The translations under genes were made by a program, and so were the position numbers. Below, in pieces: positions 11,556 to 18,291 of a stretch of DNA of 64,000 nt. The DNA is taken from NCBI RefSeq assembly GCF_001697225.1, contig NZ_CP014671.1:1612001-1676000 (forward strand), given 5' to 3'. How positions within the stretch are numbered: position 1 is the stretch's first letter; each line of letters opens with the position of its first letter. Source of the DNA: Immundisolibacter cernigliae (GTDB lineage: Bacteria; Pseudomonadota; Gammaproteobacteria; Immundisolibacterales; Immundisolibacteraceae). The notes beneath the pieces are model-generated. The model saw only the letters and a list, made by a program, of their open reading frames with translations, did not search any database and was not told the DNA's origin.

Positions 11556-11983
11556 GCGGCGAGCTGCCGCTGGACCTGATTCGCCGCTACTACGCCGGTT
11601 GCAACGCCGCGGACCGGGCGGCCATGCAGGCCACGTTCTGCGATGACGTGGTGCATTACTTCACCCACCACGCGCCGGTTTGCGGCGCCGCGGCGCTGGC
11701 CGAGCACTGGGCGCGCATGCAGCCGCGCATCGGCGGTCACTGGACGGTGGATCACGGCATCGTGCAGGGTGAGGAGGCGGTCATCGAATGGACGCTGCGC
11801 TGGAGCCCGCCCGGCGGCGCGCCGGAGCTGATGCGCGGCGCCGAGTGGTACCGCCTGCGCGACGGGCGCATCGGCGAGATCCGGGCCTATTACCTGAACC
11901 GCCATGCGCCCTATGAGCGCCGTCACTTCGAGCTGGACGGTTTCGATTACGCTGGCCGCGGCTACCCCGTGCTGTCCGAATGA
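11552..11983 (+). CDS. SnoaL/NTF2-like protein
   Basis: The 143-residue product begins with a GTG overlapping the stop of the small membrane-protein gene. It has the SnoaL-like NTF2 layout: an N-terminal helix pair (LIRRYYAGCNAADRAAMQATFCDDVVHYF) then strands ending RLRDGRIGEIRAYY. Members are cone-shaped small-molecule-binding proteins or isomerases/hydratases of varied function, so no substrate can be proposed. The zinc-ribbon protein follows after 22 nt on the same strand. Confidence 0.8.
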   Translation: MSGELPLDLIRRYYAGCNAADRAAMQATFCDDVVHYFTHHAPVCGAAALAEHWARMQPRIGGHWTVDHGIVQGEEAVIEWTLRWSPPGGAPELMRGAEWYRLRDGRIGEIRAYYLNRHAPYERRHFELDGFDYAGRGYPVLSE

Positions 11984-12005
11984 GTTTTTCAGGAGATCCC
12001 GTGTC

Positions 12006-12557
12006 ATGACCGCCCAGTGCCCCCGCTGCGCCATTGCGTTGGTGGCCACCGAGTTGCAGCAGGTGCCGGTGGCGCGCTGCCCTAGTTGTCGCGGGCTGTG
12101 GTTCGAGGCGCACGCCCTGCGCGCGGCGCGCGAGGCGGTCGATCCGGACCTGGCCTTTCTGGATGTCGAGCTGTGGTCGGATGCCGAGCAGTTCCGTCAT
12201 GCCCCGCGCAGCGGCCGCTGCCCGACCGGCGACGGCACCCTGCACGCGCTCGAATACGGCCACACCGGGGTGACGGTGGATTACTGCGACGTCTGCTTCG
12301 GCGTGTGGCTGGAGGAGGCCGAGTTCGAGCGCATCGTGACCGCCCTGGAACACGAGGTGGATACCCGCCCGGCGCCGGAGTACCTGCGCGCCGCCCTGCA
12401 CGAGGCCCGCCAGCTGCTGACCGGCCCGCAGCCGCTGCTGGACGAGTGGCGATCGCTGCGTACCGTGCTCAAGTTGCTCGAATACCGGGTGCTGTCCGAG
12501 CACCCGGGCCTGCACCAGCGCCTGCTGGCGCTGCAGGCCGGCAATCCGTTTCGCTGA
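12006..12557 (+). CDS. zf-TFIIB-type zinc-ribbon protein
   Basis: The 183-residue product starts MTAQCPRC with the ATG at 12006, 10 nt after AGGAG. It has a CxxC-x(n)-CxxC zinc ribbon (CPRC near residue 5, CPSC near 25) followed by the GLWF segment typical of zf-TFIIB-like domains. A second ribbon-like half (YCDVCFGVWLEEAEFERI) lies near residues 95-113. The C-terminal part is helical and charged. Such proteins are common in bacteria but uncharacterised. The start was taken here rather than at the earlier frame opening at 11904 because the zinc ribbon begins here. Confidence 0.8.
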   Translation: MTAQCPRCAIALVATELQQVPVARCPSCRGLWFEAHALRAAREAVDPDLAFLDVELWSDAEQFRHAPRSGRCPTGDGTLHALEYGHTGVTVDYCDVCFGVWLEEAEFERIVTALEHEVDTRPAPEYLRAALHEARQLLTGPQPLLDEWRSLRTVLKLLEYRVLSEHPGLHQRLLALQAGNPFR

Positions 12558-12643
12558 ACCGGCGCCCATAAGGCGCTGTTATAGAATGCCGGCCGCTTTG
12601 GCCGGCCGGCCGCCGCCCACGTTTTCACTCTGCCCGACGATCC

Positions 12644-13150
12644 ATGCGCCACTCCCGCGCCGCGCTTGCCCTTTTGTTGTGCCTGCTGGCTGCACCGGCC
12701 GCCGCGCGCGGCGTGTACGGCTGGGTCGAGTTCGCGGAATTGCACCTCGATGGCCAGCCGCTGAGGCTGAAGGCCAAGCTCGATACCGGCGCGCGCAGCT
12801 CCTCGCTGGATGCCACCGACATCACGCCCTTCGAGCGTGACGGCCGGCGCTGGGTGCGCTTTCGGGTCAGCCGATCGGGGCTTCAGGAAGCGCCGCTCAT
12901 GGAGCAGCCGGTGGTGCGTTACGTGCGCATCAAGCGCCACAGCGGCCCGCATGACCGCCGGCCGGTGATCCACCTGCCGCTGTGCCTGGGCGACGAGCTG
13001 CGCACGGTCGAGGTCAACCTGACCGATCGCGGGCGCTTCATCTACCCGCTGTTGCTGGGGCGCAAGGCGCTGGCGCGCCTGGCGGTGGTCGATCCGGCCC
13101 GTACCTTCGTCCGCGAGCCGCGCTGTCAGGCCGGCGCCACCGGGGAGTAG
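12644..13150 (+). CDS. Secreted retropepsin-like (putative ATP-dependent zinc protease family) protein
   Basis: The 168-residue product has an N-terminal signal peptide (AALALLLCLLAAPAAARG, residues about 5-23) and then a retropepsin-like domain with the aspartic-protease-type motif LDTGARSSSL at about residues 46-55. The family was once called ATP-dependent zinc protease (COG4067, PF05618) but resembles aspartic proteases. The neighbours are a transglutaminase-7TM protein and a RimK-like ATP-grasp ligase, a recurrent bacterial gene set, so this protein probably acts in the periplasm on a product or partner of that system. It ends 19 nt before the next gene. Confidence 0.85.
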   Translation: MRHSRAALALLLCLLAAPAAARGVYGWVEFAELHLDGQPLRLKAKLDTGARSSSLDATDITPFERDGRRWVRFRVSRSGLQEAPLMEQPVVRYVRIKRHSGPHDRRPVIHLPLCLGDELRTVEVNLTDRGRFIYPLLLGRKALARLAVVDPARTFVREPRCQAGATGE

Positions 13151-13169
13151 TGTCCTGCGCAACCGTCAT

Positions 13170-14675
13170 TTGCTGATCCTGTGCCTGCTGCTGGTCACTG
13201 CCGGCGGCAGCCTTTTTCTGTACAAGTGGCTCGATCTTGGCGTGCCGATCAAGGCCGACAACGCCATCGGCGCCTGGACCGTGGAGGCGCGCATCCGCTT
13301 CAGCGCGCAGTCCGGCAAGCCGGTCAAGGTGCGCTTTGCGGTGCCGCTGCGCCCGCCGGGCTTTGCCCTGCTGGACGAGACCTTCGTGTCGAGCGGCTAT
13401 GGCCTGTCGACGGCCGTGCAGGATGGCGACCGCGAGGCGTTGTGGGCCATCCGCCGCGCCCGCGGCGAACAGGAGCTGTACTACCAGGCGGTGGTCTACC
13501 CGGCCCGCGACACGGCCCAGTCCACCGGCTCGCGCCCGCCGTCGGTCGAGCCGCCGCAGTTCAGCGACGCGCAGGCGGCGGTGGTGGCCAGCCTGGTCGA
13601 GCAGATTCGGGCCCACTCGGCGGACATCGCCACCTTCGCCGTCGAAACCCTGCAGCGGCTGGGTGCCCGCGACAACAGCGACATCAATCTTCTGCTAACC
13701 GGTGATGACTCGCCGCAGCGGCGCGCCGAAGTCGCCGCCGGCATTCTGGCCACGGCCAATATCGCCGCCCGTCCGGTGTACGGGTTCCAGCTCCAGAAGG
13801 AAGGTCGGCGCCTGCCGCTGCTGACGCGTCTGGAAGTCCACAACGGCGAGCGCTGGCTTTCCCTGGACCCGCTGAGCGGGGCGCAGGGCCAACCGGACGA
13901 TTTCCTGGTCTGGTCGCGCGGCAAGCCGCCGCTGCGCGACAGCGACGGTGTGCGCCACCTGCGGCTCGAATTCTCGGCCGCCGAGAACACCTACGAGGCC
14001 CTGGCCGCGGCCCGCCAGCGCGCCGCCGAGCGCGGCTCACTGGCGCTGCAGTTCTCGCTGCTGAGCCTGCCGGTGCAGATGCAGATGGTGTACCGGGTGG
14101 TGCTGACCATGCCGCTGGGGGCGCTGATCATCGTGCTGCTGCGCAACGTGGTCGGCATCAAGGCCTTCGGCACCTTCGCGCCGATCCTGATCGCGCTGGC
14201 GTTTCGGGAAACCAGGCTTTTGAACGGCATCCTGCTGTTCACCGGCATCGTCGCGCTGGGTCTGGGCGCGCGCTTCTACATGGAGCGGCTCAAGCTCCTG
14301 CTGGTGCCGCGCCTGGCCTCGGTGCTGACCGTGGTGGTGCTGATGATGGCCATGCTGAGCGTGCTGACCTATCAACTGGGCATCGGCGCCGGGCTGTCGG
14401 TGGCGCTGTTCCCGATGGTGATCCTGACCATGACCATCGAGCGCATGTCGATCGGCTGGGAAGAGGCCGGCCCGCGCGAGGCCCTGCAACAGGCCGGTGG
14501 CAGCCTGCTGGCTGCCTCGCTGGCCTATCTGGTGATGACCGAGCGGCAGGTGCAGCACCTGGTGTTCATGTTCCCGGAACTGCTGCTGATCGTGCTGGCC
14601 ATCACGTTGGCCATGGGCCGCTACACCGGTTATCGGCTGACCGAGCTGCGGCGCTTCAAGGCACTGGCCGGATGA
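13170..14675 (+). CDS. Inactive transglutaminase fused to seven transmembrane helices
   Basis: The 501-residue product has one N-terminal membrane anchor (LLILCLLLVTAGGSLFLYKW), a large extracytoplasmic region (about 30-300) with a degenerate transglutaminase-like domain, then about seven hydrophobic helices (about 310-480). This is the Transglut_i_TM / 7TM_transglut architecture, in which the usual catalytic Cys is absent. The start is uncertain: TTG at 13170 is the first usual start, but the in-frame codons just before it (CTG CGC AAC CGT CAT) would give the typical positively charged leader. The stop overlaps the ATP-grasp gene by 4 bp. Confidence 0.88.
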   Translation: MLILCLLLVTAGGSLFLYKWLDLGVPIKADNAIGAWTVEARIRFSAQSGKPVKVRFAVPLRPPGFALLDETFVSSGYGLSTAVQDGDREALWAIRRARGEQELYYQAVVYPARDTAQSTGSRPPSVEPPQFSDAQAAVVASLVEQIRAHSADIATFAVETLQRLGARDNSDINLLLTGDDSPQRRAEVAAGILATANIAARPVYGFQLQKEGRRLPLLTRLEVHNGERWLSLDPLSGAQGQPDDFLVWSRGKPPLRDSDGVRHLRLEFSAAENTYEALAAARQRAAERGSLALQFSLLSLPVQMQMVYRVVLTMPLGALIIVLLRNVVGIKAFGTFAPILIALAFRETRLLNGILLFTGIVALGLGARFYMERLKLLLVPRLASVLTVVVLMMAMLSVLTYQLGIGAGLSVALFPMVILTMTIERMSIGWEEAGPREALQQAGGSLLAASLAYLVMTERQVQHLVFMFPELLLIVLAITLAMGRYTGYRLTELRRFKALAG

Positions 14676-15628
14676 TCACGTTCCCCTGGCAACGGGCACG
14701 GGCGCTGCGAGCGCACGGCGTGCTGGGCATGAACCAGCGCAACGGGGACTTCATCGCCCGGGTCAACCCGCGCCGTCTGTATCCGCTGGTGGACGACAAG
14801 GTGCGCACCAAGACCCTGGCCCAGGCGGCCGGCATCCAGGTACCCGAGCTGTACGGCCTGATCGCCATCCAGCACCAGGTCCTGGATCTGCCAAAACTGC
14901 TGGAGGGCCGCGAGGATTTTGTCGTCAAGCCGGTCAACGGCAGCGGCGGCAACGGCGTGCTGGTCATCGTCGGGCGTCGCAAGGGCCGCTACCGCAAGGC
15001 CAGCGGCGCCCAGCTGACCGAGGACGAACTCGAACACCACGTCTCGAACACCCTGTCGGGCCTGTACAGCCTGGGCGGGCAGCCGGACGCGGCGATGATC
15101 GAGTACCGCGTCAAGGTCGACCCGGTGTTCGAGCCGATCTCGCACCAGGGCGTGCCGGACCTGCGCACGGTGGTCTACAAGGGCTATCCGGTGCTGGCCA
15201 TGGTGCGCCTGCCGACCGCGCTTTCGGACGGCAAGGCCAACCTGCACCAGGGCGCCATCGGCGCCGGCATCGACATCGCCACCGGACTGACCGGCCGCGG
15301 CGTGTGGCGCAACGAGGTGATCGACGAACACATCGACACCGGCAACCCCATCACTGGCGTGCAGGTGCCGCAGTGGGAGACGCTGCTGGAATTGGCCGCC
15401 CGCTGCTACGACATCAGCGGCCTGGGGTATCTGGGCGTGGACTTCGTGCTGGACCGCGATTTCGGGCCGATGATGCTGGAGATGAACGCCCGCCCGGGCC
15501 TGAACATCCAGATCGCCAACCAGACCGGCCTGCTGCCGCGCCTGGCCACCGTGGACGCGCACGGCCGGCAAGGCGCCAGCGTGGCCGAGCGGGTGGCGTT
15601 TGCGCAGGAGCGCTTCGGGCGGGCCTGA
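14672..15628 (+). CDS. RimK-related alpha-L-glutamate ligase-like ATP-grasp protein
   Basis: The 318-residue cytoplasmic product is an ATP-grasp carboxylate-amine ligase. Visible motifs are DDKVRTKTLAQAAGI near residue 40 (pre-ATP-grasp), the glycine-rich ATP loop VVKPVNGSGGNG at about 87-98, and the Mg-binding end MMLEMNARPGLNIQ at about 268-281. It matches the RimK-related glutamate-ligase-like group always paired with a transglutaminase-7TM protein. The ligated amino acid and acceptor are not known. It is the last gene of the three-gene unit and is followed by a hairpin. Confidence 0.88.
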   Translation: MITFPWQRARALRAHGVLGMNQRNGDFIARVNPRRLYPLVDDKVRTKTLAQAAGIQVPELYGLIAIQHQVLDLPKLLEGREDFVVKPVNGSGGNGVLVIVGRRKGRYRKASGAQLTEDELEHHVSNTLSGLYSLGGQPDAAMIEYRVKVDPVFEPISHQGVPDLRTVVYKGYPVLAMVRLPTALSDGKANLHQGAIGAGIDIATGLTGRGVWRNEVIDEHIDTGNPITGVQVPQWETLLELAARCYDISGLGYLGVDFVLDRDFGPMMLEMNARPGLNIQIANQTGLLPRLATVDAHGRQGASVAERVAFAQERFGRA

Positions 15629-15640
15629 CCCAGGCCGCTC

Positions 15641-15692
15641 CCGTGGCAGCGCCGCCCCCGGCGCGAACGCCAGGGCGCAGCGTCTGCCACGG
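15641..15692. terminator. Convergent-gene hairpin with 9-bp stem
   Basis: CCGTGGCAG (15641-15649) is mirrored by CTGCCACGG (15684-15692), a perfect 9-bp inverted repeat with a GC-rich 34-nt loop. It fills the 65-nt gap between the convergent ATP-grasp and M15-peptidase genes. No U tract follows, so it may be a Rho-type 3-prime hairpin or a REP-like element rather than a classical intrinsic terminator. Confidence 0.45.
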
Positions 15693-15693
15693 A

Positions 15694-16683
15694 TTACCAG
15701 CGCGCCTTGACCCCGCGCGTGTCGAGGTGCAGAAACGCGCCGTGGTAGGCATTGGGCGGATAGGCCGACAGGCCGCCGGTGAAGCGCTGCCAGCCGGCCT
15801 CGCCCTGCGCCGCGTCCATGATTTCAAACAGCAGCCGGGCGTCTTCCCGGTCATGGCGGCGGTCGCCGTTGAGGTCGTCCATGCGCCCGTCGCCGTCCTC
15901 GTCGATGAACACGTCGGCCGCGTCGCCCCACTGATGGCGGCTGAAACGGGTATCGCCCAGCTGGCGGTTGTAGTGCGGCGTGCGGTAGCCGCTCATCACG
16001 GTCAGGCCGCTGCTGGCGATGCCGGCGCGCGCAAAGCGCTCCATGGCCGCCTCCAGCGCCAGCGGCAGCCGCTCGCGAAGCGCCACGTAGCGCGGCCCGC
16101 TGGCCGCCTGCTTGCATACGAATTGCCCCAGCTTCAGGCGTGGCGTCAGCGGCAGCTCGGCGCTGCGGGCATTGATCTCGATGAAACCTTCCGGCGGCCG
16201 GTACAGCGCCTGGCCGCTGGGGTGGCTCGGATAATTGCCGATCAGATAGCCGTTCAGCGCGCCGCCGCGCAGCGCCTGACGCGGCGTGGTGACCAACGCC
16301 GTGAAGCGCATCCGGGCCCCGTCGGCGCGTCGAACTTCCAGCGTGTAGGCGCCCGGCTTGCCGGGCGCGGTCCAGCGCCACTGTGCCGCGGCGAGGCGCT
16401 GGACCGCGCCGGCGCCAGCATCGAGTGTGAAAGCGCCGCTGTCGGCGTCCTCGACCTGCAAGGTGATGGCCTGGCCGGCGCGCGCCACCAGCGGGTTGAC
16501 CGCCAGCGCCGAGCGCTCGGTGCCCCAACGCACGCTGAAGCCGGCACCACCGGAGCTGCCCGATGCCGGCGTCAACATGGCCAACTGCAGTGGCGCCGCC
16601 AGTGCCGGCATCACGCCGGCCGGGCCCAGCACGGCGCAGCACAGCCAGCGCGCCAGCCAGTGGCCGAAAGAGTGCCGGCCCAT
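15694..16683 (-). CDS. Secreted YcbK-like (DUF882/peptidase M15 fold) protein
   Basis: The 329-residue exported protein has a signal peptide (about residues 1-29, ending PALA) and an N-terminal domain of unknown type. The C-terminal M15A metallopeptidase fold begins near residue 210: SGYRTPHYN, then SRHQWGDAADVFID with zinc-binding His/Asp, and GAFLHLDTRG at the end. The family contains D-Ala-D-Ala carboxypeptidases and the E. coli YcbK/MepK-type peptidoglycan hydrolases. It directly follows an L,D-transpeptidase gene (3 nt), as ycbK follows ldtD in E. coli, so it likely trims cross-links made by L,D-transpeptidation. Confidence 0.85.
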   Translation of the reverse strand: MGRHSFGHWLARWLCCAVLGPAGVMPALAAPLQLAMLTPASGSSGGAGFSVRWGTERSALAVNPLVARAGQAITLQVEDADSGAFTLDAGAGAVQRLAAAQWRWTAPGKPGAYTLEVRRADGARMRFTALVTTPRQALRGGALNGYLIGNYPSHPSGQALYRPPEGFIEINARSAELPLTPRLKLGQFVCKQAASGPRYVALRERLPLALEAAMERFARAGIASSGLTVMSGYRTPHYNRQLGDTRFSRHQWGDAADVFIDEDGDGRMDDLNGDRRHDREDARLLFEIMDAAQGEAGWQRFTGGLSAYPPNAYHGAFLHLDTRGVKARW

Positions 16684-16686
16684 AGG

Positions 16687-18291
16687 TCAATCTCCCTGAA
16701 TCGGTGTGGCGAGCGCCGCCGCCAGCGGCGCATCGCGGTCGTAGATGTCGCGTCGAAACTGTACCGCCCCATCACTGTTCACCCAGGCGGTCCAGTACAG
16801 CAGGTAGACCGGCACCGGCTCACGCAAGTTCACGGTGCGCGTGTTGCCGCCGTCGATGGCCGCGCGCAGCGCCTCGGGCGACCAGCGCGGGTCGCCCGCC
16901 AGCAGCCAGTCGGCCAGCGCCAGCGGCTCCTGCAGCCGGATGCAGCCGGAACTGAAACCGCGCTCGGCGTGCGCGAACAACGCCCGCGCCGGAGTGTCGT
17001 GCAGGTAGACGTCATGGCCGTTCGGGAACATGAACTTGACGCGCCCGAGCGCATTCCACGGCCCCGGATCCTGGCGCAAACGGTACGGCAGCGGGGTCCT
17101 GACGCGTTGCCAGTCGATGCTGGGCGGGTCGATCTGGCGCGCATCCTCGGCCCAGCCGCTGAGCACCCGTATATGCTCCCTGGCCAGATACCCCGGATCG
17201 CGACGGATCAGCGGCAGCTTGTCCTGCGCGGCCAGTCGCGGCGGCACTTCCCAGTAGGGGTTGAGCACCAGGTAGCGGATGCGGTCCGAGAATTCCGGCG
17301 TCGGCCGGTAGGGCTGTCCCACCACCACGCGCATGCGCAGCGCCACCGCCGGGCCGTCGATGGCCTCCAGCGTGAAGGCGGCCACGTTGACGCGTACCTG
17401 ACGCCGCCCTGGCGCCTCGCCCAGCCAGCGCCTACGCTCCAGATTGGCGATGAGCTGGTCGACACGCACTGTCGCCGGCGTGTTCAGCGCCCGGCGCGTC
17501 TGGCGACCGATGGCGCCATCGACGTCGAGCCCGTGGCGAGCCTGAAAACGGCGCACTGCGGCCTCGAGCGGCGCATCGAACAGCGCCTCGCCATCGCCGA
17601 CCGGGCCGTCCATGCCCTCGCGCGCCAGGCGTTGACGCAGCACGGCCAGCAGCGGGTCACGATCACCCGGCCGCAGGGTCGGGCCGTCCGGCAGCAGCGG
17701 CCAGCCACCCGTGGCAGCGATGGCACGGTAATGCGCCAGGGCCTGTTGCAGGCGCGGATAGCCGGCCAACGAGGAGCTGAGCCCGGACAGGAACGCCGCC
17801 GCGGATTCGGCCTGCTGCAGGCGCGCCGGCAGATCGGCATCCACCGCCAGCAAGCGCCGGCGAGGGGTGAGCCCGCCGACCTCGATCTTGCCGCCACGCA
17901 CGTGCGAACCGAGCATCAACAAGCCGTCGCTGAGCAGCAGATCGAGCATGGCCTGCCCGGCTGGGGATCGATCTGCGCGTTGCGCATCGATGGCGGCGAG
18001 GTGGTAGTCGGCCGCGCGCAGACCGTGCGCGGCTGCGCCCGTCAGTTCGGCGCGCGCCGCATCCGCGCGCCGAGCGTCCCACAGCGGCGCATGGCCGCGA
18101 GCCGCATACAGCGGTCGCAGCAGCTCCGGGGCATACAGCGGCGGTCCGGCGGTGAGGCTCGGTGCTGCCAGCGCGGCCTGCAGCGCCTCGGCCACCGGCT
18201 CGGGCGCAGCCGGACTCGCCCACGTCAGGGCGGCGAGCAGCCACCCCAGCCAGACGCCCGCCCGCAGCCGGCGGCGCACGGCGGGCAGCAA
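16687..18291 (-). CDS. L,D-transpeptidase of the YcbB/LdtD type
   Basis: The 534-residue protein forms 3-3 cross-links in peptidoglycan. It has an N-terminal signal/anchor (WLGWLLAALTWASPA), a scaffold domain, a PG_binding_1 domain near residues 225-260 (FDAPLEAAVRRFQARHGLDVDG), and the YkuD catalytic domain with the motif HDTPARALFAHAERGFSSGCIRL, where His and Cys are catalytic, at about residues 430-452. The start is a TTG at 18291; a GTG at 18279 would also keep the signal peptide. It precedes the YcbK-like gene by 3 nt and follows slyD by 23 nt. Confidence 0.92.
   Translation of the reverse strand: MLPAVRRRLRAGVWLGWLLAALTWASPAAPEPVAEALQAALAAPSLTAGPPLYAPELLRPLYAARGHAPLWDARRADAARAELTGAAAHGLRAADYHLAAIDAQRADRSPAGQAMLDLLLSDGLLMLGSHVRGGKIEVGGLTPRRRLLAVDADLPARLQQAESAAAFLSGLSSSLAGYPRLQQALAHYRAIAATGGWPLLPDGPTLRPGDRDPLLAVLRQRLAREGMDGPVGDGEALFDAPLEAAVRRFQARHGLDVDGAIGRQTRRALNTPATVRVDQLIANLERRRWLGEAPGRRQVRVNVAAFTLEAIDGPAVALRMRVVVGQPYRPTPEFSDRIRYLVLNPYWEVPPRLAAQDKLPLIRRDPGYLAREHIRVLSGWAEDARQIDPPSIDWQRVRTPLPYRLRQDPGPWNALGRVKFMFPNGHDVYLHDTPARALFAHAERGFSSGCIRLQEPLALADWLLAGDPRWSPEALRAAIDGGNTRTVNLREPVPVYLLYWTAWVNSDGAVQFRRDIYDRDAPLAAALATPIQGD

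Follow-up and report, generated by a model that had tools for sequence, protein, structure and literature searches.

A gene trio of the rloABC type is said to have been the subject of a prediction by Iyer et al. in 2009. The type was characterised in Pseudomonas aeruginosa in 2025, when Lormand et al. named the genes rloABC and solved two structures of the RloA family (PMC12239564). P. aeruginosa has three secreted RimB-like retropepsins that are jointly required for growth at low salt, and its RloA cleaves runs of at least eight glutamates in vitro (PMC12239564). The protease-null strain grows poorly under hypo-osmotic conditions; loss of rloB or rloC cures this growth defect completely and its antibiotic, biofilm and shape defects in part (PMC12239564). 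In this species the operon influences biofilm, tolerance of antibiotics and survival of osmotic stress. The described pair RimK-RimB is a glutamylation system of ribosomal protein S6 (PMC12239564).

The window (the whole stretch of DNA analysed, 64,000 nucleotides from Immundisolibacter cernigliae) carries a trio of this kind. Positions 12300-16000, read and translated, hold three co-directional genes in the order rloA-rloB-rloC (Table 1). An earlier note had described a secreted protein with the motif LDTGARSSS, a membrane protein whose transglutaminase domain is dead, an intact ATP-grasp ligase and a 4-bp gene overlap, and each was found where it had been placed. Judged from its sequence, the trio is the Rlo operon (rloABC) of the type characterised in P. 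aeruginosa, and the locus is confirmed as an ordinary member of that recently described group; the note's view of it as the best candidate for an under-described system, with an unknown substrate, is outdated by the 2025 work (PMC12239564). With the P. aeruginosa operon (PA14_41690/41710/41730) the locus shares gene order, a dead-transglutaminase membrane protein, a TIGR02291-type ligase and a secreted DTG peptidase that has the Cys pair and the polyglutamate-contact residues. There are, however, two differences. First, the host has one PF05618 gene only: in its single-contig assembly (3.24 Mb) a PF05618 search returned the window's rloA alone, so RimB, RloA2 and RloA3 are absent from this genome. 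RimK-family matches elsewhere in it were weak or were other ligases. The host thus has a minimal version of the system (one protease, no RimB), a useful clean test case. Second, RloA and RloB fall well short of the NCBIfam cut-offs, which are specific to P. aeruginosa: the models are defined on Pseudomonas, and against them RloA reaches 133.7 bits for RloA3 (cut-off 210) and 133.2 bits for RloA1 (cut-off 280), and RloB 468.3 bits for NF052267 (cut-off 900). Because the scores lie below the curated cut-offs, the window genes were not filed as named RloA3, RloA1 or RloB orthologues. The closest RloB by sequence is that of another Immundisolibacter (L021, 87% identity).

Table 1. Coordinates of the rlo locus, its neighbours and the type II relatives (window positions)
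Feature	Position	Strand	Remarks
PF13453 Zn-ribbon gene	11904-12557	+	86 bp upstream of rloA; beside rlo only within the genus
rloA	12644-13150	+	secreted retropepsin-like aspartic peptidase, 168 aa
RloA signal peptide	12644-12706	+	MRHSRAALALLLCLLAAPAAA, by eye; relatives also have a hydrophobic leader
LDTGARSSS active-site motif, catalytic Asp47	12779-12805	+	sequence and alignment
GGGGAG, probable rloB ribosome-binding site	13142-13147	+	overlaps the rloA end; 7 nt before CTG 13155
rloB	~13155-14675	+	start CTG 13155 or TTG 13170; inner-membrane protein, 501-506 aa
RloB periplasmic transglutaminase-like domain	13257-13997	+	fold matches: Z 16.2 to 3isr, Z 8.2 to the periplasmic domain of TgpA
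RloB 7TM_transglut membrane domain	13941-14666	+	PF14402
ATGA, rloB/rloC overlap	14672-14675		4 bp
rloC	14672-15628	+	RimK-like ATP-grasp ligase of 318 aa, predicted to be cytoplasmic
M15-like peptidase and YkuD L,D-transpeptidase genes	15694-18291	-	convergent to rloC; conserved in the genus only
Type II loci L101-L105, L147-L151, L185-L187			relatives, outside the window

RloA matches PF05618 with 134.9 bits and aligns to the solved RloA-family structures 9g58 (E 6e-31), 9g59 and 2pma. Secretion and signal peptides were judged by eye. The polyglutamate-contact residues K45, R92, R106 and R129, the catalytic D47 and the Cys114/Cys161 pair are all present; the contact residues correspond to K46, R92, R114 and R137 of P. 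aeruginosa when the numbers are transferred by counting from its catalytic D48 along 9g58. In 12 sequences these contact residues and the Cys pair are invariant or nearly so. A candidate RloA-RloB fusion in a sister species (L006) was rejected, its single ORF being made by a run of N.

RloC scores 472.8 bits against TIGR02291 (cut-off 314.2) and 307 bits against PF14397. Its ATP-grasp motifs are intact, and K86, G93, G95, E144, N190-L-H-Q-G, D257, E270 and N272 are invariant across 55 sequences; the motif residues are thus conserved, wholly or nearly, in orthologues, as the earlier reading requires. The predicted structure (pLDDT 93.5) has the poly-alpha-L-glutamate synthetase RimK as its top fold match, followed by ArgX and cyanophycin synthetase, and RloC and RimK have the motifs NLH[QR]G and E-x-N-x-x-P-G in common, although their N-terminal parts differ. 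The locus resembles RimB-RimK as a whole in joining a retropepsin-like protease to an ATP-grasp glutamate ligase, but RimB has no signal peptide, RimB-RimK has no membrane protein, and the window trio scores only 88.8 bits against the RimB model (cut-off 200), and its RloC 38.9 bits against the RimK family (cut-off 143.4). We give an even chance to a reading in which RloC makes poly-alpha-glutamate, RloB carries it across the membrane or presents it there, and RloA cuts it; the export by RloB that this reading infers rests on genetics and gene context.

The fold matches of RloC also include D-Ala-D-Ala ligases, which could be taken to favor a substrate related to peptidoglycan: RloC and RloB would attach or shift an amino acid or a peptide on some precursor of the wall, RloA would act on the same material, and the operon would serve wall editing. 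The shape, ampicillin and hypo-osmotic defects of P. aeruginosa mutants (PMC12239564) are in keeping with this, as are the M15-like and L,D-transpeptidase genes that follow the operon in the window. Yet such neighbors occur at just one locus of 80, within the same genus, and the preference of RloA for runs of at least eight glutamates does not suit stem peptides (PMC12239564), so we regard wall editing as very unlikely. A functional link to these two neighboring genes was itself rejected, as they are not kept beside rlo outside the genus.

RloB, the proposed carrier of the glutamate chain, has two Pfam domains, PF14400 (Transglut_i_TM, E 1.6e-45) and PF14402 (7TM_transglut, E 5.1e-100, 334.5 bits). 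Its model (mean pLDDT 85) consists of one N-terminal helix, a periplasmic domain with a beta-rich and a transglutaminase-like part, and a helical membrane domain; the seven helices of the earlier description therefore apply to the PF14402 domain and not to RloB as a whole, which has the further N-terminal helix. As for the start of the gene, the TTG chosen mechanically is replaced by CTG in a sister species (L007), in which the upstream CTG is conserved. Starting at the latter adds RNRH before the first RloB helix, and relatives likewise begin with M-[KR]. Translation of rloB thus likely starts at this upstream CTG and is coupled to the rloA stop. A scan of the region gave no promoter-like site and no Rfam family, and its sole terminator-like site lies inside rloB at chance level.

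In the alignment the triad positions of the periplasmic domain read P-L-D instead of C-H-D, which bears out the description of the window's transglutaminase domain as catalytically dead. None of 89 type I RloB proteins (the window's type) has the C-H-D triad. RloB is like TgpA of P. aeruginosa in its periplasmic transglutaminase-like domain (Z value in Table 1) but unlike it in lacking the triad and in having a membrane domain of a separate family, PF14402. Residues invariant among 69 sequences fall in the FGTF, RET, LFP, ER and FPE motifs of the membrane domain. A fold search with that domain gave no convincing match: it listed the RND proteins AcrB and MmpL5 at Z 5-6 over about 104 residues, which is within background, and a PDB sequence search with the RloB profile gave no meaningful match.

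Pseudoenzyme domains often act as sensors, and a domain retained after its catalytic residues are gone raises the question of whether RloB might be a sensor or regulator that reads the state of the envelope or the level of a peptide with its dead periplasmic domain and controls RloC through the membrane, RloA tuning the signal peptide. The rlo genes of Vibrio cholerae are part of the VxrB envelope-stress regulon (PMC12239564), which is consistent with such a role. Still, Pfam finds no signalling domain in RloB, its membrane domain holds most of the invariant residues, and in the type II relatives considered below the catalytic triad of the periplasmic domain is intact. These points make sensing improbable, and passage of the chain through or to the membrane remains the reading that we prefer for RloB.

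The conservation of the trio was surveyed in 274 gammaproteobacterial genomes. TIGR02291 exceeds its cut-off in 46 of them, all of which also have a type I RloB; type I RloB occurs in 48, and in the remaining two RloC is represented by fragments that lie at the ends of contigs. Type I rloB and full-length rloC are thus never found apart in this set; rloB adjoins rloC in 46 of the 48, and rloA is adjacent upstream in 45 (44 plus G048), counts that come from genomes that are not phylogenetically independent and are often incomplete. Fisher values computed for the co-occurrence accordingly serve as description only. In 80 related loci rloC follows rloB every time and rloA precedes rloB in 68 (three of the other 12 loci are interrupted by a contig end), and because the order is kept so consistently it is beyond chance. 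The recurrence of the trio in other genomes, claimed before, is borne out, and with the conservation of the RloC motifs it upholds the proposed scheme of cytoplasmic ligation, a membrane step and periplasmic trimming. In Woeseiaceae-type genomes (L042, L049, L054, L078, L110 and others) and in G127 and L091, a dead RloB and RloC are present but no secreted RloA could be found, several of these genomes being incomplete. A strict rule that a dead RloB always has an RloA was rejected on account of the Woeseiaceae-type genomes, and RloA may not always be needed. In the Woeseiaceae-type loci, where no rloA lies upstream of rloB-rloC, a flavoprotein-like gene precedes the pair in several cases.

A distinct RloB-RloC pair, here called type II, was found in 13 genomes (RloB about 140-180 bits against PF14402, RloC 250-270 bits against TIGR02291) from several gammaproteobacterial families and one family (f199) of another class. 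All 13 type II RloB proteins have an intact C-H-D triad (SCNGK, HQWVE, PFDxxND), and those tested score against Transglut_core. At these loci rloA is adjacent in none of the 13, and no secreted RloA was found in 11 of the genomes. Seven lack any PF05618 match, and in four the sole matches are RimB-type genes that lack a leader (next to a RimK-like gene in G363 and G187; with no RimK seen within the short locus in G108 and G717). The two that do have a secreted RloA have it beside another RloB, of type I in G040 and of type III in G700. A live transglutaminase without RloA in one type and a dead one with RloA in the other suggest that the two share one step in the periplasm, a testable statement about the present or past role of the periplasmic domain.

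Downstream of type II rloC lies a gene for an inner-membrane-anchored TPR protein and then, at most type II loci where the contig permits, one whose product, of about 395 aa, has a leader and a barrel-like sequence. Two of these barrel proteins were tested and weakly resembled EpsL (E 4e-6 and 6e-6), and a PDB sequence search with the barrel gave nothing meaningful. With a barrel and TPR proteins encoded alongside, the type II product may be able to leave the cell. In this the type II loci are like the EpsL, PgaA and AlgK/AlgE exopolymer loci; the difference is that a glutamate-type ligase, and not a glycosyltransferase, would serve as synthase, and the window locus has neither barrel nor TPR gene. 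At one locus (L104) RloB and RloC are a single protein of 838 aa, with no barrel following. In the fusion RloC is joined straight to the cytoplasmic end of RloB, as expected if the C-terminus of RloB faces the cytoplasm; the arrangement fits a sensor and an exporter equally. A literature search, with most subscription papers and preprints outside its coverage, found no description of type II, which is possibly an undescribed sister system of the Rlo operon. It makes the Rlo mechanism more testable, and the contrast of types I and II points to an export route for a glutamate-type polymer in Gram-negative bacteria.

The glutamates might instead be attached to something. RloC would then add glutamate tails to an envelope component, a carrier of protein or lipid nature, before its insertion or export, RloA would remove the tails, and RloB would be the membrane partner of the acceptor and not an exporter of free polymer. 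RimK-RimB sets a precedent with ribosomal protein S6, and no candidate proteins containing polyglutamate were found in P. aeruginosa, where a post-translational tail is one option that the authors name (PMC12239564). The carrier-protein ligases ArgX and LysX are also close to RloC in fold. Nonetheless, the loci read have no candidate acceptor gene beside the trio, a modified protein would need to be exported afterwards, and the outer-membrane barrel and TPR proteins of type II fit a polymer better. On balance we think carrier glutamylation unlikely.

Synthesis, passage and cutting of a chain is the simplest model because it accommodates the type II contrast, the barrel and TPR genes, the fusion and the published rescue together. 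By its fold, its motifs and the substrate of RloA, RloC would join glutamates by alpha-peptide bonds in the cytoplasm with ATP, either free or on an acceptor. The acidic chain would be carried across the inner membrane by RloB or presented there, with the membrane domain as the presumed conduit and the periplasmic transglutaminase-like domain as a binding platform without catalysis. In the periplasm RloA would cut glutamate chains that are about eight residues long or longer, as P. aeruginosa RloA does in vitro and as the contact residues conserved here would allow. The length and amount of the periplasmic chains may in turn adjust the osmotic balance of the envelope and the growth of the wall. 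Uncut polymer would be harmful in dilute medium, which would explain why removal of RloB or RloC rescues protease-null P. aeruginosa. In type II, the live-transglutaminase RloB would do the periplasmic processing itself and the product would pass through the outer-membrane barrel. A bolder proposal, which we offer tentatively and expect is somewhat more probably wrong than right, is that RloB represents the founding member of a family of proteins that export polypeptides across the inner membrane and are coupled to a RimK-like synthase. Type II would be a complete exopolypeptide secretion system, made up of ligase, live-transglutaminase membrane protein, TPR scaffold and a barrel in the outer membrane. 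The window type would be a periplasm-only form in which a separate retropepsin took over from the lost catalysis, unless the change ran the other way.

A third group of relatives counts against this model. Type III RloB proteins, in which the catalytic Cys is lost, occur without RloC in G062, G139 and G220, which indicates that RloB can exist without the ligase. A divergent rloA adjoins a type III-like RloB in G139, G202 and G700. Among individual loci, type III RloB-like genes without RloC were seen at L106, L107, L108, L152 and L184, with the catalytic Cys lost in the three that were aligned; at L107, L152 and L184 a gene for a secreted RloA adjoins the RloB-like gene on the opposite strand.
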